Virus record (IMG/VR): IMGVR_UViG_3300012207_000004
Span: 1 to 40,008 of that record
DNA from: a virus
Strand: one strand, 5' to 3'
DNA length: 40,008 bases
Shown: piece by piece, positions 14,900 to 35,370 of the stretch
Layout: each line of letters starts with the position of its first letter
How positions within the stretch are numbered: the first letter of the stretch is position 1
Made by a program: the position numbers and the translations under genes
Notes under the pieces: model-generated
Seen by the model: only the letters and a program-made list of their open reading frames with translations
The model's database searches: none
What the model was told of the DNA's origin: nothing

Positions 14900-15279
14900 A
14901 GCGGGTAGAGGCGGCTGAGCGTCTCGGCATTTCGCCGAAACGCTTTGACGGCTGGGAACCACGCGAGACGACGCGGCATTTCTACCGCGGCGGCGTGTTG
15001 GTGCGGTCGGTGACGACGCGCGAGGTTGAGTGGGATGACGACCAGCAGGCGCTGATCCTGGCGTTGGCGTTGTACCGGCGCGAACACTGCGACCAGTGCG
15101 GCGGGTATCTGCCGGAGACCACGGACAAGGCCAACGAATACGGCTACGAGGCTGTCGGCCCGTTCATGTGCCACTCGTGTGAGGCGATGGGCAAGGCCCG
15201 CGACGAGTCGGTGAAGGCCCACGAGAAAAACCCGATCCACAACATGAGCCGCTGGTCGATTCGTCTGCGGAAGGGGTGA
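14366..15279 (+). CDS. Tail assembly chaperone, -1 frameshift long form
   Basis: Reading would pass from the first frame (14366-14863) into the -1 frame (14863-15279), giving 304 residues. The shifted frame is open from 14848 and has no good start of its own until an internal GTG near 14995. The heptamer C CCT TTC at 14857-14863 is in the correct phase for a -1 slip of the tRNAs for Pro and Phe. The added C-terminal part has RFDGWEP, TTREVEWDDDQQALILAL and a zinc-ribbon-like CDQC plus CHSC pair. This gpG/gpGT arrangement is conserved in long-tailed phages. It ends three bases before the tape measure start. Confidence 0.85.
14857..14863 (+). promoter_or_regulatory. -1 ribosomal frameshift slippery heptamer
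   Basis: C CCT TTC fits X XXY YYZ exactly in the zero frame (GTC CCT TTC TCG). It lies in the only window where the two frames overlap (14848-14896). Confidence 0.85.
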
Positions 15280-15282
15280 CCC

Positions 15283-17445
15283 GTGGCCGTCCGGACCGTC
15301 AGTGTCGAACTGAAGATGAAGATCAGCGACTTCGAGTTGGCGGCGGCGAAGGCCGCGGCGACGACGAAGGCGTTGGCCGGCGAGTTCGACGACCTCGGCA
15401 AGACCAGCAGCAAGTTTTCGACGGCGAAGCCGACGAAGGAGATGCAGAACTTCTCCCGCGTCATCGACGCTGCGGCGCGCGACGGTATGAGCGGCCTGCA
15501 GGGCATCCAACGCGCGATCGACGACACGAAAATCCACATTACGAAGCTGCGCAGCGAGTTCGCGCGGACGGGCTCGTCGAGTGTGTTCGGGGATCTGAAG
15601 TCGGCGCAGAAGGATCTGCGCACGCTGGAGAACGTGTTCAAGGAGATTGCGCCAGCCGCAGAGAAGGCCGGACTAAACATTGGCCAGCGGATGGCGCAGG
15701 GCCTTACCGACTCGCTAGCCAAGGATGTCTCCGGTATCGGCGAGATTCTGTCCAATCCCGTCACGTTGGCCGGCGTCGTCGTGGCCGTCGCCGCGTGGTC
15801 ACCCATCATCGCCAGCACTGTGTCGGCCGGGGTCACGGCTGGTGCCGGCCTCGGCCTGGTTGGTGCGGCCGCGCTGATCCAGCGCAATAACCCGCAGATT
15901 GTCGGCGCCTTCAAAGATCTGTCGGGAGAGGTCAAGACTGTCCTTCAGGATGCGACGCAACCGCTGGTCGGCCCGATGGCGGACGCGCTGAAGTCGATCG
16001 AGTCGTTCGTCGCGACCGAGGGCCCGGCGATCGCGAAGGTGTTCGCGCCGCTCGGCCCCGCGATCCACATGATGGCCGTCGACTTCGAGGGCCTGATCCA
16101 CGACATTCTGCCGCCGCTCGCGAACCTGTCCGCCGAGTTCAGTTCGGCGTTCCAGTCGCAGGTCGTACAGGCCGCCCTGTTCAACCTGTCGCACGAGTTC
16201 GCGGCCTTGTTCCAGACGGTCGCGGACCACCCGCAGGAGATCCGCGAGGGTTTCATCCTCATCGCCGGTGCGATCCAACTCGCCGTCGGCGCCGTCAACG
16301 ACTTCATCAAGTTCGCGCACGTGATGAACGAGGAACTCCAGATCGGCGCGGACCTCGTCACCGGGCATTGGGGCAAAGCCTGGGACGTCCTGAAGAGCGG
16401 GTCGAAGGAGTCTGTGCAGCCGATCACGCAGCTTGGCGATGTGATCAACGGTGTTGCAGTTGGTACGCAGCGGGCCACGATCGATTTTCAGCAACTGGGT
16501 GCAGCCGCTGGCGGTCTCGGTGACGAGATCGTCAACGTGCTCCTGGGCGCGTTTGATCAGTACATCGACAAGTCGTTGGGGGTAAGCAATGCGACGATCG
16601 CGTTCAAGAACGATCTCGCGAACCTGACCGCGTCGCTGAAGGCGAACGGCACGTCGTTCGACCTCAACACCCAGAAGGGCCGCAACAACCAGCAGATGCT
16701 CAACCAGGGCATCCTTGATGCGAAGAACGTCTACGACGCCAACATCACCAACGGTAAAGGCGTGGACGCGGCGTCATTGGCCTACCAGATGCAACTTGAC
16801 CAACTCAAGAAGAACCTGATCGCCGGCGGACTGACCTCGGCGCAGGTGGCGAAACTGACCAGGCAGTACGAACTGTTGCCGGCGCAGAAGGCCACCCTGA
16901 TCAAAGCGGAGGGTACCGGCGCCGCTCAGGCAGCGGTAGACGGTGTTCTTGGCGCGCTCGGCAAGCTGCCGAAGGACCGGAACGTCAACATCAACGTGCA
17001 CGCGTTCGGTGTTGCCGCGGCCGAGGCCGCTGTGAATGGCATCCTCGGCGCGCTCGGTCGTAGCGGCAGTCGCGGGAACCGGTGGGGCGGCATCTACGAG
17101 CACAACCGTTGGGGTGGTCTCTACCAGCCCGCCGCCGACGGGCTGCTGTCGCAGGCGCGGACGTACACGCCGGTCAATCCTGGCCGGTTCATGATCGCGG
17201 AGCCGCAGACTGGTGGTGAGGCGTTCGTGCCGAAGCGCGGCGACTACGGCCGGTCCATGTCGATCCTGTCCGCCGCGGCTGGCTGGTATGGCGCGCGGGT
17301 CGTCCCCGGCGGTGGCGGTGGTGGTAGCCCGGTCAGTATCACGATCACGGCGTCCGACCCGCAGAGTAAAGCGTTCCTTGCCGCGGCCCGGATCGCCGTC
17401 CAGAACAACGGCGGGGATCCGGTGAAAGTGTTCACACCGCGATGA
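15283..17445 (+). CDS. Tape measure protein
   Basis: The 720-residue protein has a GTG start three bases after the chaperone long form. It is a long, Ala-rich helical protein: the N-terminal part is charged and coiled-coil-like (about residues 1-130). A hydrophobic region (VTLAGVVVAVAAWSPIIASTV and LGLVGAAALIQ, about residues 160-205) may insert in the host membrane. The C-terminus has NRWGGIYEHNRWGGLYQPAADGLL and GRFMIAEPQTGGEAFVPKRG, a signature of many actinophage tape measures. By the usual 1.5 angstrom per residue, the tail would be roughly 110 nm (inference). No lytic domain such as a peptidase or LysM is seen. It overlaps the next gene by four bases. Confidence 0.93.
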   Translation: MAVRTVSVELKMKISDFELAAAKAAATTKALAGEFDDLGKTSSKFSTAKPTKEMQNFSRVIDAAARDGMSGLQGIQRAIDDTKIHITKLRSEFARTGSSSVFGDLKSAQKDLRTLENVFKEIAPAAEKAGLNIGQRMAQGLTDSLAKDVSGIGEILSNPVTLAGVVVAVAAWSPIIASTVSAGVTAGAGLGLVGAAALIQRNNPQIVGAFKDLSGEVKTVLQDATQPLVGPMADALKSIESFVATEGPAIAKVFAPLGPAIHMMAVDFEGLIHDILPPLANLSAEFSSAFQSQVVQAALFNLSHEFAALFQTVADHPQEIREGFILIAGAIQLAVGAVNDFIKFAHVMNEELQIGADLVTGHWGKAWDVLKSGSKESVQPITQLGDVINGVAVGTQRATIDFQQLGAAAGGLGDEIVNVLLGAFDQYIDKSLGVSNATIAFKNDLANLTASLKANGTSFDLNTQKGRNNQQMLNQGILDAKNVYDANITNGKGVDAASLAYQMQLDQLKKNLIAGGLTSAQVAKLTRQYELLPAQKATLIKAEGTGAAQAAVDGVLGALGKLPKDRNVNINVHAFGVAAAEAAVNGILGALGRSGSRGNRWGGIYEHNRWGGLYQPAADGLLSQARTYTPVNPGRFMIAEPQTGGEAFVPKRGDYGRSMSILSAAAGWYGARVVPGGGGGGSPVSITITASDPQSKAFLAAARIAVQNNGGDPVKVFTPR

Positions 17446-20400
17446 CGTTCGTCGCGCCGACAGCTTCGCAGCCGCTGCACGTGAAGGTGTATGCCGCGTT
17501 CGGGTCCACAAGCAACGACGATCCGACCACGTGGCGTTGGACCGACATCACCCAATGGGTCAAGGTCAAACCGCCCGTTGGGCAGCCGGTCACGTTATCC
17601 GGTGGCCGGTCCAGCCTGTCCGGTCAGGCGGACCCGTCGCAGATTTCACTGTCGGTGGACAACACGGACGGACGGTTCACCGCGCAGTCTCCGCTGCTGC
17701 GTAACGGCCAGCCGAACCCGTACTGGCCTTACGTGGTACGGGACACGCCACTGAAAGTCGCTGTCACCTGGGACGGTGCGGTGACCGAGTATGAGCTGCT
17801 GACCGCGTTTGTCGGCGGCTGGCCGCTGCGGCCGAACGCCGGGCTCATCAACGTGTCCGTACCGATCACGGCGTTCGGCCGGCTGCGTGCCCTGCGCCGC
17901 ACAAACAAAGTCGTAGCGTCGGCGCTGTTTAGGGCGATCACGGCGAATATCGCCACGAGTTACGACGGGTACTGGCCGATGGAGGACCCGGTCGGTTCGC
18001 AGCAGTTCGTTGCCGAACCGTCATCGATGCCGTCGATCACGTTGGCCGGTGTCAAGCGTGCCGCACTTGCCGCTAATTCGGTTACGCCAGGGTCTAATCC
18101 GTTGCCTGACCTGTCCAGTGGTATCAGGTTGACGGCGAAGGTGCCGCAGATCAACATCGGCGACAACGGGTTCTGTGTGGATCACGTACTGGTTGTCGGC
18201 GATACACCGTCGGGGTCCGGCCTGGTCACCCTGACACGGAGTTTCATGGCCAGCGGGTCGTGGCAGATTTCGCTGGACATGACCAACTCGGCATGGCAGA
18301 TGGATCTGTTTGACACCACCGGCGCCACCGTGGATTCGGTGTCGGCATCGTGGGCCTCGACCATCAACCCTTTCGACGGCCAGCCACACATGATTCGGTT
18401 GCTGACCTCGGTCAGCGGCGCGGTCGTAGCCCAATTCATAGTCGACAACCATCTGGTCCTGTCCACCGTGGATTTGACGCAGTACAGCGGCAACGTTGTC
18501 ACGATCGGCGTGGCCGGCGTCGCCACGTCATTCCCGCTGGTGATCGGACACCTGCTGGCCGTCAACATTTCCCCGGTGTTCTTCGACAACACCAGCGCCA
18601 TGAACGGCTACGTCGGTGAGGTGGCCTGGTTCCGTTTCAACCGGCTGTGTAACCAGTACGGAATCCCGGTCACCATCAACAAGTCCACCAACGTCCCCAG
18701 CCAGCTCATGGGGCCACAAACCGCCGACACGTTAGCTAATCTGCTCGATTCCTGTGCCGCGGTCGACAACGCGCTGCTGCACGATGCCGGCCCGGGCGGC
18801 GGTCTCGTTTTCACGTCAGGCACAGCAAAGTACAACGCCGCCGTAGGCATGACCCTGGACTACAACCTGCGGCAGGTCGGTGACGATCTCGCCGCCACAT
18901 ATGACGACCAGGACCTGGTGACGTCCACGACAATTAACCGGGTCGGTGGTTCCTCGGCCACGTCGACTCTTGCCGGGGCAGCGGATTTTGTTGGCGGATC
19001 GGACACGGTCAACGCAGAGTTTGATACACCGCAGCTGGGTAACATCGCCGGCTGGCGCACACACGTCGCGTCGTTCGACTCGTACCGGCTACCGACGGTC
19101 GACATCAACATGCGTACGACGCCCACCCTGGCGGAAGCGGCCACCACCGCCCAGTTGCCGTTCCGGTTGTCTCCGATCAACATCCCGTCGCCGTATCCGG
19201 CTGGTTCGCTTGACCAGCTGGCCGAGGCGTTCACTACCACGATCGATTCGGTGGAGTGGCGCACCACCTACTCGTGTACGCCGTACCTGCCGTGGCAGGT
19301 GGCGGTGTATCACACGTCACGCTATGACGCGTCGGGGAGTTTACTGGCCGCGCCGGTGACCGCCACCGCGACGACATTGACGGCGCCGGGTTCGCAGTGG
19401 AGTACCACCAGCACACCGTACGGCATCACGGTCGGGCCGGCCGGTGGTGAACGGTGCACGGTCACCGCCGTTGCCGCATCGGGTACAGCCGGCAGCCGGG
19501 TCGGCGCGTTCCTGTCGACGTCGGCGCTGGGTGCGGCCGACTTCACTGGGGCGTTGGCGAACTTCACCAGTATCACGGGCCTGTCGGTGCCGGTGGTCCG
19601 GCAGTACCAGGCGCAGGGCGACTTCGGGATCGGCACGAACCTGTCGCAGATGGTTTCGGCCGGGAAGAAGATCTGTATCACGCTGCGCCCGGACTACAAC
19701 CCGGTCAACCCGGCACACATCACGGCGATCGACACAATGCTTGCGTCGATGAAAGCTAGCGGCGCCGCCGTCAACGTCACGTTGTGGCATGAGCCGTTCT
19801 TCTCCGGGCTGACCGCTAAGCAGTTTGTGCGGATGGTGAAGTACTACGGGCCGACGGTTCGTAAGTACTATCCGCTGTGGGTGGTCTACTCGGGTGCGGA
19901 CGCCGACGTCGCCAACGACTACTACCCGGGTGACGCGTACTGCGATGGGGTGGGAGTCGACGCGTACGCGACGTCGAGCACACTGCAGGTCACGAACGCG
20001 CAGAGCATCGCGGATATGGGTAACAAACCGTTCGGTGTTTGGGAGTTCAACGGCGGTGCCGACTTGGGTCAGGGCACCGCCATCCAGGGGCAGAGCCAGT
20101 CTGCGGTCACCGCACACTTCCAGTACATCCAGGACCTGTTCACGGCCCGGCTCGCGGCCGGGAAACCGAACGGTGATCTGCTGTTTTTCTCGTCGCCTGG
20201 CCTACCGAACGGGTCGCAGAACTTCCTGGGTACCAGTCTGACGGCGGATGGCGGCTTCGAGACCGGGCTCGGGAACTGGATCGGCGGCTCGGCCACCTTG
20301 GCGCAGACCGCGGCACAGGCGCATTCGGGAACGAAATCTGGACAGATCACCGCGCCGGGCGGCGGTGGCACCGCCAACATCCTGATGTGTGCGACAGGAT

Positions 20401-20900
20401 CCATCACCACGCAAGGGCTGCCGTGTGTCGCCGGTCAGGTCGTTGCCGGGATGGGCTGGTTCCGCAGTGCGGTTACCGCACGGTCTTGCCGGGTCGACAT
20501 CGCGTTTTTCGACTCTGGTGGCGGGGCACTGTCGACAATCACCGGGTCGGCCGTCACCGACAGCACATCAGCATGGACATCGACAGTAACGAGTGGCGCC
20601 GCGCCGGCCAGTACCGCATACGCACGGATCGTTCCGGCCGTGCTGGCGACGGCGGGGTTGGAGGTGCATTACTTCGACGATCCGGAGATTGCGGTACTGC
20701 CGGCCACGAACGATCTGACGTCGCCGATCCAGTACCCGTGGGATTACCGGATCGCGCTGCTGTCGGCGATGATCACGGCGCTCGACAACACGAGCCCACC
20801 GCAGGCGCTGACGGTTACGCGCGGCGTCAACGGGATCAAGATCGCGCACAGTGCCGGTGATGCGTTGCACGTCTATCCGCTACCCATCTACGCGTTGTGA
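17442..20900 (+). CDS. Minor tail protein with embedded glycoside hydrolase and carbohydrate-binding-like domain
   Basis: In this 1152-residue protein, the N-terminal part (about 1-250) looks like a tail-tip protein (WRWTDITQWVKV, SQISLSVDNTDGRFTAQSPLL). Residues about 250-400 resemble a laminin-G or concanavalin-type beta domain. A TIM-barrel glycoside hydrolase lies at about 690-915. The candidate acid/base is E784 in VTLWHEPFF and the candidate nucleophile E868 in FGVWEFNGG, with GVDAY between them, as in clan-A families (GH26-like). A beta domain at about 935-1085 (GGFETGLGNWIGG, then HSGTKSGQI) resembles a carbohydrate-binding module. The last 65 residues return to tail-protein style. 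It would bind and cut a surface glycan at adsorption. Substrate is unknown. Confidence 0.85.
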   Translation: MTFVAPTASQPLHVKVYAAFGSTSNDDPTTWRWTDITQWVKVKPPVGQPVTLSGGRSSLSGQADPSQISLSVDNTDGRFTAQSPLLRNGQPNPYWPYVVRDTPLKVAVTWDGAVTEYELLTAFVGGWPLRPNAGLINVSVPITAFGRLRALRRTNKVVASALFRAITANIATSYDGYWPMEDPVGSQQFVAEPSSMPSITLAGVKRAALAANSVTPGSNPLPDLSSGIRLTAKVPQINIGDNGFCVDHVLVVGDTPSGSGLVTLTRSFMASGSWQISLDMTNSAWQMDLFDTTGATVDSVSASWASTINPFDGQPHMIRLLTSVSGAVVAQFIVDNHLVLSTVDLTQYSGNVVTIGVAGVATSFPLVIGHLLAVNISPVFFDNTSAMNGYVGEVAWFRFNRLCNQYGIPVTINKSTNVPSQLMGPQTADTLANLLDSCAAVDNALLHDAGPGGGLVFTSGTAKYNAAVGMTLDYNLRQVGDDLAATYDDQDLVTSTTINRVGGSSATSTLAGAADFVGGSDTVNAEFDTPQLGNIAGWRTHVASFDSYRLPTVDINMRTTPTLAEAATTAQLPFRLSPINIPSPYPAGSLDQLAEAFTTTIDSVEWRTTYSCTPYLPWQVAVYHTSRYDASGSLLAAPVTATATTLTAPGSQWSTTSTPYGITVGPAGGERCTVTAVAASGTAGSRVGAFLSTSALGAADFTGALANFTSITGLSVPVVRQYQAQGDFGIGTNLSQMVSAGKKICITLRPDYNPVNPAHITAIDTMLASMKASGAAVNVTLWHEPFFSGLTAKQFVRMVKYYGPTVRKYYPLWVVYSGADADVANDYYPGDAYCDGVGVDAYATSSTLQVTNAQSIADMGNKPFGVWEFNGGADLGQGTAIQGQSQSAVTAHFQYIQDLFTARLAAGKPNGDLLFFSSPGLPNGSQNFLGTSLTADGGFETGLGNWIGGSATLAQTAAQAHSGTKSGQITAPGGGGTANILMCATGSITTQGLPCVAGQVVAGMGWFRSAVTARSCRVDIAFFDSGGGALSTITGSAVTDSTSAWTSTVTSGAAPASTAYARIVPAVLATAGLEVHYFDDPEIAVLPATNDLTSPIQYPWDYRIALLSAMITALDNTSPPQALTVTRGVNGIKIAHSAGDALHVYPLPIYAL

Positions 20901-20910
20901 GGAGAATCAG

Positions 20911-21132
20911 ATGATGGCTGCCCGTACCGTCGAACTAACAGTCAAGCCGGTGCTCGACGCCGTGACTGTGCGCCCCGGTGACACGCTGGTTGTCCGCGTC
21001 GCGACCGACCTCAGCATGGACCAGGTCGCCGAGTTCAAGTCGCGGCTGACGGACCGCCTTCCTGGCGTTGACACACTGGTCGTGTGCGCCGACCAGTTGC
21101 TGGTCTACCGGCCAGACGGCAGCGAGGGCTGA
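20911..21132 (+). CDS. Hypothetical small tail-region protein
   Basis: The 73-residue protein has tandem ATGs behind GAGGAG. It has a beta-alpha layout: VELTVKPVLDAVTVRPGDTLVVRV, then a helix MDQVAEFKSRLTDRLPGV and the strand DTLVVCADQLLVYRP. Similar short proteins occur downstream of minor tail genes in actinophages. Function is not known. It ends one base before the next start codon. Confidence 0.7.
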   Translation: MMAARTVELTVKPVLDAVTVRPGDTLVVRVATDLSMDQVAEFKSRLTDRLPGVDTLVVCADQLLVYRPDGSEG

Positions 21133-21133
21133 C

Positions 21134-21622
21134 ATGCCTTCCGCTGGTGACATTGTCGAGGTTGCGGACGTCCAGATCCCTAACGTTCAGCTGGGCACCG
21201 TTGCGTACGTCACGCAGGCTTCCAACGGCACGGTCACGTCGAGTGGTACGGAAACCCGGGACGCTGTGCTCGGCAACCTGACGTTCGTGGTGGCCGCGGC
21301 GCAGAACACGACCCGGTACCGGATCGTGTTGGCTGGACGAGGTCTGAACTGCACCGCCGCCGCCGACCGTTTCACCCTGAACTTCCGCGACGGCGGCGCA
21401 TCCACACCAACAGCGGCGTCAACGCTGGTCGGCGTCAACTTCAATGTGACGTTCGCGGCGACCGGTTCCCCTGGCGTCGCGGCCGCCTTCTTCGGCAGCA
21501 CGTTCGTCCCCGGCACGGGCGCCCACACGATCAGCGCCTTCTGGATACGTACGTCGGGTACGGGTACAGCCACACCCGTCGGGGCGTGCGAGTTCTACGC
21601 CGAAGCACTGGGGACTATCTGA
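21134..21622 (+). CDS. Hypothetical beta-rich tail protein
   Basis: The 162-residue protein is placed at the ATG at 21134. Thr, Ala and Gly-rich with regular beta strands (NLTFVVAAAQNTTRYRIVLAG, TLNFRDGG). This style is common in distal tail or fibre subunits of actinophages. No catalytic motif is seen. It overlaps the endolysin start by one base (TGATG). Confidence 0.7.
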   Translation: MPSAGDIVEVADVQIPNVQLGTVAYVTQASNGTVTSSGTETRDAVLGNLTFVVAAAQNTTRYRIVLAGRGLNCTAAADRFTLNFRDGGASTPTAASTLVGVNFNVTFAATGSPGVAAAFFGSTFVPGTGAHTISAFWIRTSGTGTATPVGACEFYAEALGTI

Positions 21623-22542
21623 TGACGATCGCCATCAAGGGCGTGGATACGACCCATCACGATCTGACCGGTGCGATGCTCAAAGCCGCCGGTAAAGCGT
21701 TCGTCTGCCGGTATGTGCAGAACAAGGCCGGGTCGACGCTCGACAAGCAGATGCGTCATGACGAGTTGGTGGAGAAGGCCGCCGCCGGGGTGCTGACGGT
21801 GGCGAACTGGGAGCTCGAGTCGGCACCACCCAACAGCCGGTCGCGTGGTCAGGATGATGCGCACGCGTGTAAGGCGCGGCTGGCGGGGCTCGGCGTGGGC
21901 GCGTGGGTGAGGGTGTACTACTCGCTGGATACCCCGGCCAGCGCTAGCGATTACAACGCGTACGCCGCCGGCTGGCGTGATGTGTACCCGGCCGACCAGC
22001 TCGGCGTCTACGGCGACGGTGCCCTGTTCCGGGCGTTGAAGGCCGACGGCTATGTCAAGTACGCGTGGCAGTCGATGTCCCGCTCGTATCCGGGTAACCA
22101 TCACGCGGACGGCACCTGGAACCATGATGGTGCGGACATCATCCAAACCGGGTCGGGGACCCTGAACGGTTTCTCGTTGGACTATGACACCGCCGTCGTA
22201 GACGACTACGGCGGCTTCATGCTCGGAGAGGAAGACCCCATGGCGGTTACTGACACGGACGTTGCGACGATCCTGCACACCGACGGCATCATCCCGAATC
22301 CGGCGTACCGTTCGGACTCCCCGGCGCACACCCCACCCGGCACGAACGCGTTCGTCGCCTGGCAGACCCTGGTCCTCGAGTCGGCGATCAACGCATCCAA
22401 CGCGGTCGCCGGGTTGAATGCGTTGAAGGCGGCCGTGGCGAAGATCCCAACCACGGCAGGCACCGCGACACTGTCTGATGCCGACAAGGCCGACATCGCG
22501 CAACAGGTCGCCGACCTGCTGGCAGCACGGCTGCAGAACTAG
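21622..22542 (+). CDS. Endolysin, DUF1906 glycoside-hydrolase-like
   Basis: In this 306-residue protein, residues about 1-200 match the DUF1906 (Rv2525c-like) TIM-barrel family: IKGVDTTHHDLT at the first strand, AFVCRYVQNK, VLTVANWELES, WVRVYYSLDT and QLGVYGDGALFRAL. The likely active-site acids are D in GVDTT and E in NWELE. The C-terminal 90 residues are a helical or linker region (WQTLVLESAINASNAVAGLN) of unknown role, possibly wall binding. The start at 21622 is coupled to the upstream gene. Two holin candidates follow, so this is the lysis cassette and the enzyme most likely degrades the host wall. Confidence 0.85.
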   Translation: MTIAIKGVDTTHHDLTGAMLKAAGKAFVCRYVQNKAGSTLDKQMRHDELVEKAAAGVLTVANWELESAPPNSRSRGQDDAHACKARLAGLGVGAWVRVYYSLDTPASASDYNAYAAGWRDVYPADQLGVYGDGALFRALKADGYVKYAWQSMSRSYPGNHHADGTWNHDGADIIQTGSGTLNGFSLDYDTAVVDDYGGFMLGEEDPMAVTDTDVATILHTDGIIPNPAYRSDSPAHTPPGTNAFVAWQTLVLESAINASNAVAGLNALKAAVAKIPTTAGTATLSDADKADIAQQVADLLAARLQN

Positions 22543-22558
22543 CCGGCGAGGTCACACG

Positions 22559-22828
22559 GTGGTTCAACCATTTCAAGGCGACGGGAACATCACCATCACG
22601 CTGCGCGACGTGTGGACGGAACTGCGGGTGGTCTCGGCGAAGGTGGATCAGGTTGACCACAAGGTGACCGAGGTCGATCACAAGGTGGCCGAGGTTGCGA
22701 CGGACGGGCACGACCACGAGGTGCGGCTACGTGCGCTCGAGAGAGCGCGCTGGCCATTGCCGGCGCTGTCTGCCCTGATCTCGATCACCGCCATCATCGT
22801 GTCGGTACTCGTCGCATACCGTCGATAG
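22559..22828 (+). CDS. Putative holin or lysis accessory with coiled coil and one membrane helix
   Basis: The 89-residue protein has a GTG start. The middle is a heptad-like coiled coil (VVSAKVDQVDHKVTEVDHKVAEV), followed by a charged stretch. A single C-terminal hydrophobic helix (PLPALSALISITAIIVSVLVAY) ends in RR. Such N-in coiled-coil, one-helix proteins accompany holins in actinophage lysis cassettes. It could be the holin itself or a holin regulator. Confidence 0.75.
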   Translation: MVQPFQGDGNITITLRDVWTELRVVSAKVDQVDHKVTEVDHKVAEVATDGHDHEVRLRALERARWPLPALSALISITAIIVSVLVAYRR

Positions 22829-22836
22829 GAGAGATC

Positions 22837-23103
22837 ATGACGAATCCTGTTGCCCCGCCGGTGCCGTTGCCGATCCCAGCCCCGGCGCACGTGGATGCGA
22901 AGTCCCGGGCGTGGCGGACGCTCGTGCAAGGCGGCACGGTCACCGTCGCCGCCGCGGTCGTACCGGTCGTGCTCGCATCGACGGGGACGATCCAGTGGAC
23001 AGGTGCTTGGTGGGCGGCGTTGGGCGTGACATGCGGTCAGACGGCGTTGACGGCCGGGCTGTCGTATGTGGCGCGGCATGTGGTGCCACCGTCGACATCC
23101 TGA
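22837..23103 (+). CDS. Putative holin with two membrane helices
   Basis: The 88-residue protein starts at an ATG behind ATAGGAGAG. A proline-rich N-terminus leads to two hydrophobic helices (TVTVAAAVVPVVLAS, about residues 34-50, and AWWAALGVTCGQTALTAGLSYVA, about 57-79). This topology, and position directly after the endolysin, fit an actinophage holin that opens the membrane at lysis. It is the last gene before the operon-ending hairpin. Confidence 0.8.
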   Translation: MTNPVAPPVPLPIPAPAHVDAKSRAWRTLVQGGTVTVAAAVVPVVLASTGTIQWTGAWWAALGVTCGQTALTAGLSYVARHVVPPSTS

Positions 23104-34181: not shown

Positions 34182-34378
34182 AAGCGCCGCATGACGGCTG
34201 GTTGATCGCCGGTAGCCCACGGTGGCGGCCATATCCGTGCCGGTGCGACCTAGGCCGGGCATGCGGCTACAAGTGCGCGTGTGTGGGGCGGACGGATGTG
34301 GATGTTGTGCCGGCACATTGCTGTGCGAGACGCAAGAGCGAAACGAAACAACGACTAGCAGAGCGGACGTCCACGTGA
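34178..34378 (+). CDS. Hypothetical Cys-rich small protein
   Basis: The 66-residue ORF has ATGA overlap with the previous gene. A cluster of eight cysteines (YPCRCDLGRACGYKCACVG and AHCCARRK) indicates a metal-binding or disulfide-rich protein. The end overlaps the MT-A70 start (GTGA). No family is recognised. Confidence 0.6.
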   Translation: MKAPHDGWLIAGSPRWRPYPCRCDLGRACGYKCACVGRTDVDVVPAHCCARRKSETKQRLAERTST

Positions 34379-35370
34379 GCGAGCTTCAACTCTTTGACCC
34401 GAGTCAGGCCGAGGCTTCCGCACTGCGGTCCAAGGTCATTGCACTTCGGCAGCAGATACCGGACTTCAGCGAGGACGAGCTGGACCGTCTCGAAGCGTGG
34501 TTGGTCGGCGTGGCAAAGCGGCTGCGTCAGTTGAAGCAAAGTTCGTCCGAGGCTGAGGCGTCGCGCGTCATGACCATCCGGCGCCTCGGCGAACTGCTAG
34601 GACCGGGTGTGACTGGTCGGCCGAAAACGTTACCCGATGGGAACGATAAAACGTTACCCGATGGGAACGTTTTATCGGCCGGCTATCGGAAGCGGTGCCA
34701 TGCTGCACGGTTACTCGCCGAGTTCGGCGACATCGTGGACCAACAAATAGGCGAGTTCCTGTCGGCGGGGAAGCCGGCCATCTCGCTGTCACGGATGGTT
34801 CGCATATGCCAGCGGCGGCGGTCCGCGCGCGAGGTGCCCTTCACCGACCGCCTGTATGCGCTGTTGTATGTGGACCCGCCCTGGCAATACGAAGGCGCCG
34901 AATCAGGAACGCGACAGATCGAAAATCAGTACGGCACCATGCCGCTGGACGAGATCAAAGCGCTAAGTATCCCATCGGCGGACGACGCAACCCTGTTCAT
35001 GTGGACGACCTCGCCGAAGCTAGCCGACGGCCTGGCGCTCGTGAAGTCATGGGAGTTCGAATACCGGACCTGCATGGTGTGGGTCAAAAACAAGATCGGC
35101 ATGGGCTACTACGCCCGACAGCAGCACGAGTTACTGCTGATCGCGAAGCGAGGCCAGCCGATCCTGCCAGCCCCTTCCAACCGACCGCCGTCGGTGTTCT
35201 ACGGCGACCGCGGCGAGCACTCGGCCAAGCCTGAACGCGCCTACGAACTGATCGAAGCCATGTATCCCGAGTACGAACGCAGCGACGAGTTCACCGAGTT
35301 TGTTGAACTCTTCGCGCGAGTTAAGCGTGCCGGCTGGGATGCATGGGGACTAGATACGGCGATCTCATGA
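34375..35370 (+). CDS. MT-A70 family adenine-N6 DNA methyltransferase
   Basis: The 331-residue protein has a GTG start coupled to the previous gene. The C-terminal domain carries DPPW at residues 167-170 (YVDPPWQYEG). It also has YGTMPLDEIKAL, ATLFMWTTSPKLADGLALVKSW and GYYARQQHELLLIAKRG, all MT-A70 features. The N-terminal 165 residues are helical (a region like IRRLGELLG and MVRICQRRR) and may guide DNA binding. A tandem 24-nt repeat in the gene gives KTLPDGNDKTLPDGN near residues 84-98. It methylates adenine N6, probably to evade restriction or mark phage DNA. Confidence 0.88.
   Translation: MSELQLFDPSQAEASALRSKVIALRQQIPDFSEDELDRLEAWLVGVAKRLRQLKQSSSEAEASRVMTIRRLGELLGPGVTGRPKTLPDGNDKTLPDGNVLSAGYRKRCHAARLLAEFGDIVDQQIGEFLSAGKPAISLSRMVRICQRRRSAREVPFTDRLYALLYVDPPWQYEGAESGTRQIENQYGTMPLDEIKALSIPSADDATLFMWTTSPKLADGLALVKSWEFEYRTCMVWVKNKIGMGYYARQQHELLLIAKRGQPILPAPSNRPPSVFYGDRGEHSAKPERAYELIEAMYPEYERSDEFTEFVELFARVKRAGWDAWGLDTAIS
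34624..34677 (+). repeat. Tandem repeat and 12-bp inverted repeat inside the MT-A70 gene
   Basis: The 22-nt unit AAAACGTTACCCGATGGGAA (plus CG) occurs at 34624-34645 and 34648-34669. In addition CGATAAAACGTT (34644-34655) is perfectly inverted at 34666-34677, around a CCC/GGG-capable loop. The hairpin is AT-rich within a GC-rich gene. Confidence 0.9.

Follow-up and report, generated by a model that had tools for sequence, protein, structure and literature searches.

The window, by which we mean the whole 40,008-base stretch of DNA analysed, is the entire virus record IMGVR_UViG_3300012207_000004. It carries terminase, portal, protease, capsid and tail genes, an Rv2525c-like endolysin, a tyrosine integrase on the minus strand, RecT and an exonuclease. 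This gene content identifies the window as a temperate tailed phage. An MT-A70-type DNA methyltransferase gene is found at 34222-35370, in the right-hand part of the genome. A DNA-level search of the phage collection with window positions 15000-22900 returned no match. The features of the tail region considered here are as follows.

15283-17445, plus strand: putative tape measure protein (720 aa), assigned mainly by its position between tail genes and the hub gene
17442-20900, plus strand: tail-hub protein gene (1152 aa, ATG start), directly 3′ of the putative tape measure gene with a 4-bp overlap
17442-19361, plus strand: gp27/gp44-like hub scaffold, residues 1-640
18024-18581, plus strand: jelly-roll (ConA/LamG-like) domain inside the hub, residues ~195-380, boundaries approximate
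19362-19484, plus strand: first half of the terminal beta domain, residues 641-681 (W653, GGE 668-670)
19497-20231, plus strand: predicted glycoside hydrolase family 26 (GH26) (beta/alpha)8 domain, residues ~686-930
19791-19793, plus strand: E784, predicted acid/base, in LWHEPF at the end of beta4
19923-19967, plus strand: YPGDAYCDGVGVDAY, the GH26 signature motif, within the Pfam-matched segment and recovered by a DNA pattern search
20043-20045, plus strand: E868, predicted nucleophile, in GVWEFNG at the end of beta7
20235-20696, plus strand: carbohydrate-binding-like beta domain, residues ~932-1085
20718-20897, plus strand: C-terminal piece of the terminal beta domain, residues 1093-1152, a near-complete second copy
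21586-22542, plus strand: Rv2525c-like endolysin (PF08924, 4e-11; phrog_13480 endolysin), a separate gene downstream of the hub gene and not part of the hub

The hub gene had been placed at 17442-20900 on the plus strand in a first-pass annotation, with E784 in LWHEPF and E868 in GVWEFNG, and both the coordinates and the residue numbers are correct. Hub residues 115-682 match phrog_5313 (3.5e-88), and scaffold homologues number approximately 115, from viral contigs as well as from Streptomyces, Micromonosporaceae, Nocardiopsis and related genomes; one of them (L052) shares 30% identity with the window hub over residues 1-678. The AlphaFold2 model of the whole protein is confident at residues 1-680 and 1117-1152, and is not confident in the insert, where the alignment had no rows. 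Foldseek matched the hub model to the Milano baseplate/tail tip, the MuSo2 43-kDa tail protein, Mu gp44, the T5 tail tip and VgrG, and matched residues ~195-380, a run of beta-strands in the model, to jelly-roll lectin folds. Kinship of this jelly-roll part with the unrelated lectin-fold proteins was rejected, and the matches are read as a common fold only. In view of both sets of structural matches, the protein is best described as a tail hub of the gp27/gp44-like type that contains a jelly-roll domain. Assignment to the phrog_5313 actinophage hub family agrees with the scaffold homology and hub fold, and with the position of the gene right after that of the putative tape measure protein, which itself has a weak PHROG tail match (phrog_788, E 0.006). 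Many homologues (L003/L004) possess a second insertion site, where ~200 aa are inserted in the N-terminal part of the hub; this insertion is absent at window residues 106-116.

The last ~74 residues of the homologues form a small domain that follows the pattern W-T-T-D..P-F-D-v..G-G-E-x-x-T-V-T-A-I ... P-Q-x-F-T-V-T-R-S-V-N-G-v..H-x-A-G, in which the residues equivalent to W653, G669 and E670 are nearly invariant. A profile of this terminal domain was built from 33 insert-free homologues and then run over all homologue tails. The domain is split at one place (~model positions 40/41) in 48 of the 55 long-tailed homologues, a count that includes some near-identical records, and the inserts at this hairpin are either ~140-215 aa or ~340-380 aa long. 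The window insert, at ~411 aa, occupies the same hairpin and is the longest of the set. The earlier proposal that cargo had been inserted into a structural scaffold is supported by the ~115 homologues, many of which either have an uninterrupted terminal domain or carry other domains in this hairpin.

It had also been proposed that the C-terminal tail segment resumes after the insert, and this holds in part. A piece of the terminal domain is present at residues 1093-1152 (model positions 15-74, 34.9 bits), but it is not a clean resumption. The first piece covers model positions 5-40 at residues 645-681, and the second restarts at position 15, not at 41 as in nearly all other homologues. Since 26 model positions are present in both pieces, the arrangement is a partial duplication. 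On the simplest reading, recombination placed a segment comprising a GH26 domain, a carbohydrate-binding module (CBM) and a terminal domain in the hairpin of a terminal domain that was already there. In the AlphaFold2 model, the two confident pieces that pair with each other are the first half (645-680) and the last third (1117-1152), a pairing that the alignment favours and that is not decisive. The duplication flanking the insert (19362-19484 and 20718-20897) could be a footprint of the recombination that brought in the GH26 domain and CBM.

The second part of the insert had been described as a carbohydrate-binding-like beta domain, which its homology to the CBM_4_9 domain of Streptomyces phage Ignacio supports. 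A BLASTP alignment of residues ~932-1085 with Ignacio gp18 (9e-12 in a small database) shows about 30% identity over a region assigned to Pfam CBM_4_9; a direct Pfam search with the window residues gave no CBM_4_9 match. The protein encoded right after the tape measure gene in Rhodococcus phage REQ1 is 38% identical over window residues 964-1079. Ignacio gp18, phiSASD1 gp38 and relatives share the scaffold of the window hub and are likewise tail proteins encoded after the tape measure gene. In Ignacio gp18, the CBM_4_9 is inserted in the same terminal beta domain, but before model position 16 and so earlier than the hairpin used in the window, and no enzyme was found in that insert. CBM_4_9-like ends are known from phiSASD1 gp38, at its C terminus, and from P1312 ORF22 (PMC4569894).

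The first part of the insert was recognised as GH26 by Pfam model PF02156 (Glyco_hydro_26), which matches residues 793-845 with E=1e-6 and 28.8 bits against a curated cut-off of 20.2, over 54 of the 311 model positions only. A PDB sequence search gave weak matches to Bacillus GH26 mannanases (E~0.001), and NCBIfam gave no match. Single-sequence searches of viral contigs, genome contigs and phages with the GH domain yielded no usable relatives (one candidate, L002, was rejected as an unrelated protein), and among 396 genomes sampled from the phylum there were marginal matches only. A degenerate DNA pattern for YPGDxYxDx[V/I][G/A]xDxY occurs once in the window, in none of 100 shuffles, and in 41 viral contigs, from which 32 GH26 domains were aligned with that of the window. 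The motif columns of this alignment are the search pattern itself, and their conservation is not independent evidence. The two glutamate columns both lie outside the pattern, and their conservation is therefore independent evidence: the residue equivalent to E784 is glutamate in 32/32 of the other viral rows, and that equivalent to E868 in all 31 rows with a residue there.

An AlphaFold2 model of residues 676-936, computed with the 32 viral GH26 sequences, consists of eight alternating strand-helix units (pLDDT 72, pTM 0.72). E784 is located just after model strand 102-106, and E868 belongs to model strand 189-196. The first-pass annotation had postulated a TIM barrel with candidate catalytic glutamates, and the predicted (beta/alpha)8 fold supports this: E784 and E868 align with the conserved catalytic pair, where strands beta4 and beta7 reach their C-terminal ends. 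The best Foldseek match was the GH26 lichenase CtLic26 (E 4e-8), followed by GH26 mannanases, with moderate TM-scores (~0.6) and 15-18% identity to the known enzymes. Because the AlphaFold2 alignment contained GH26 relatives, the barrel fold is partly dependent on the sequence match. GH26 was the top fold family, and neither of the outcomes that the first-pass annotation had named as refuting its reading, a lack of the TIM-barrel fold or a placement of the glutamates outside the active-site pocket, was found.

GH26 chemistry is retaining and employs two glutamates, with mannan, mixed-linkage glucan or similar polymers as substrates. A histidine typically precedes the acid/base in this family, where most clan-A families have an asparagine, and residue 783 of the hub is a histidine. 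Of the features by which GH26 membership is judged, the family-model match, the predicted (beta/alpha)8 fold and the predicted catalytic glutamate pair are present. In its predicted barrel, His-Glu on beta4, Glu on beta7 and YPGD...DxY motif, the window domain resembles CtLic26 (2cip and 2vi0) and the Bacillus mannanases (3cbw and 2whk), from which it differs in its low sequence identity (about 17%), its compact loops and its embedding in a predicted virion protein.

A Pfam scan of 47 homologue C-terminal segments found GH26 in the window only and CBM_4_9 in 11 segments, and no GH26 match above the cut-off was present in 75 scaffold-bearing virus records. GH26 domains do occur in other tail-type proteins. 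A 1371-aa hub of the same phrog_5313 scaffold family (L173, IMGVR_UViG_3300036829_000136; L194 5934-10049) also has a GH26 fused to its scaffold, but at the N-terminal side rather than within the terminal beta domain, which suggests that it was recruited independently of that in the window. A 1705-aa protein (L172 6035-11149) resembles an actinophage minor tail protein and combines a GH26 with a C-terminal right-handed-repeat (NosD-like) region; its reading as a tail protein comes from sequence, and a PHROG search gave no match. In a third contig (L177 1-3201, minus strand), a single ORF runs from an Mtd_N tail-fibre start through a GH26 to a polysaccharide-deacetylase-like domain, a tail fibre with more than one carbohydrate-active domain. 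In light of these three proteins, recruitment of GH26 into tails probably took place more than once.

The domain identities, the predicted fold, the conservation of E784 and E868 and the common insertion site were all established computationally here. We consider it likely that a temperate siphovirus infecting an actinobacterium uses the protein as its tail hub, and that the hairpin of this hub carries a GH26 retaining endo-glycosidase and a CBM for glycan cleavage at adsorption. The host would be a soil actinobacterium of the Streptomyces or Micromonosporaceae type. In this scaffold family, additional domains would dock at the exposed hairpin of the C-terminal beta domain. When the phage adsorbs, the CBM probably keeps the tail tip attached to a polysaccharide of the host surface, which the GH26 barrel probably cleaves by a two-glutamate mechanism, with E784 as predicted acid/base and E868 as predicted nucleophile; cleavage would clear a path along which the hub reaches the wall. 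The enzyme would then be active, displayed on the virion, directed at a host glycan rather than at plant material, and of influence on host range. Cutting of a capsule or wall glycan during adsorption and a role of the GH26 domain in setting host range, both suggested in the first-pass annotation, may be envisaged.

The barrel might alternatively be catalytically weak or dead and serve, together with the CBM, purely as a receptor-binding module for a surface glycan. The inserts found at the hairpin in other homologues do resemble binding domains only (CBM_4_9 and unassigned beta domains), and the window barrel is short and compact, with a beta4 loop (PFFSG) in place of the longer NGxWxxW of most viral relatives. 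Given this shortened loop, the substrate may differ from mannan, and activity may differ or be lost. However, loss of the catalytic pair would be expected in a pure lectin, whereas both glutamates and the YPGD...DxY motif are kept, as is the histidine at 783 that is shared with 8 of the 32 viral relatives. On balance, we regard a purely binding role as unlikely.

It is very improbable that the enzyme is the product of an auxiliary metabolic gene, acting in soil on mannan or beta-glucan from plants or fungi and feeding the host instead of aiding phage entry. GH26 genes, mannanases among them, are listed as auxiliary carbohydrate-active enzymes of soil viruses (PMC6460857, PMC10127799), and several of the viral GH26 ORFs have no obvious fusion to tail proteins. 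The GH26 of the window, by contrast, is fused in frame within a tail hub where binding domains are otherwise inserted, and the hub gene belongs to the late structural region beside the putative tape measure gene. We find it scarcely credible that two genomes were joined in assembly to give this architecture: the exact nested architecture was found in one record only and the terminal domain is partly duplicated at both ends of the insert, but the ORF is single and uninterrupted, GC is uniform across scaffold and insert, the junctions are in frame exactly at the insertion hairpin of the scaffold family, and the order of CBM and then terminal domain matches that of Ignacio gp18.

Among the closest known counterparts of the window hub are the evolved Dit and evolved Tal proteins of siphophages of Gram-positive bacteria, in which carbohydrate modules in loops of tail-tip proteins help adsorption to saccharide receptors (PMC7291167). 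As in the window hub, carbohydrate-active domains are inserted in a structural protein of the tail tip. The evolved Dit and Tal inserts are, however, binding modules in galectin or gp27-like domains, whereas the window cargo includes an enzyme, which forms its first part, and sits in the small C-terminal beta domain after the hub rather than in a loop of a Dit galectin or Tal gp27 domain. By analogy, the window hub may work like an evolved Tal, and it is not classed as one. As related viruses place sugar-binding domains of other kinds in the loop occupied here by the enzyme and CBM, the arrangement would be a recognisable, enzymatic version of a known means of passing the surface coat of the host. 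Binding modules in tail-tip proteins and virion depolymerases are known; our literature search on GH26 in phage tails found no description of an enzyme nested at the terminal hairpin in the phrog_5313 hub family.

Little is known of the receptors that Streptomyces-type phages use or of the surface barriers that they meet. The presence of a GH26 in the tail suggests that one such barrier is a mannan-like or beta-glucan-like polymer at the surface, and in Streptomyces hosts the CslA/GlxA apical glucan (PMC11022532) could hypothetically be such a substrate. The conserved insertion hairpin provides a concrete and comparable site at which the gain and swapping of surface-active domains in these phages can be studied. 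Actinophage hubs may possess, in their small terminal domain, a dedicated cargo-docking hairpin that accepts entire folded domains of up to ~410 aa, active enzymes included, with cargo swapping as a main route to altered binding or cutting of surface glycans; we put this forward tentatively, and give it slightly less than an even chance.

GH26-like genes are also present in six related actinobacterial genomes, and their alignment with the phage domain is weak. The neighbourhoods of three of these genes, obscured by high-GC shadow ORFs, gave no hint of a substrate. L135, L139 (Streptomyces sp. CB03234) and L134 (Actinoplanes) encode several divergent GH26-like proteins, all of which match one and the same stretch of 50-60 residues in the Pfam model.
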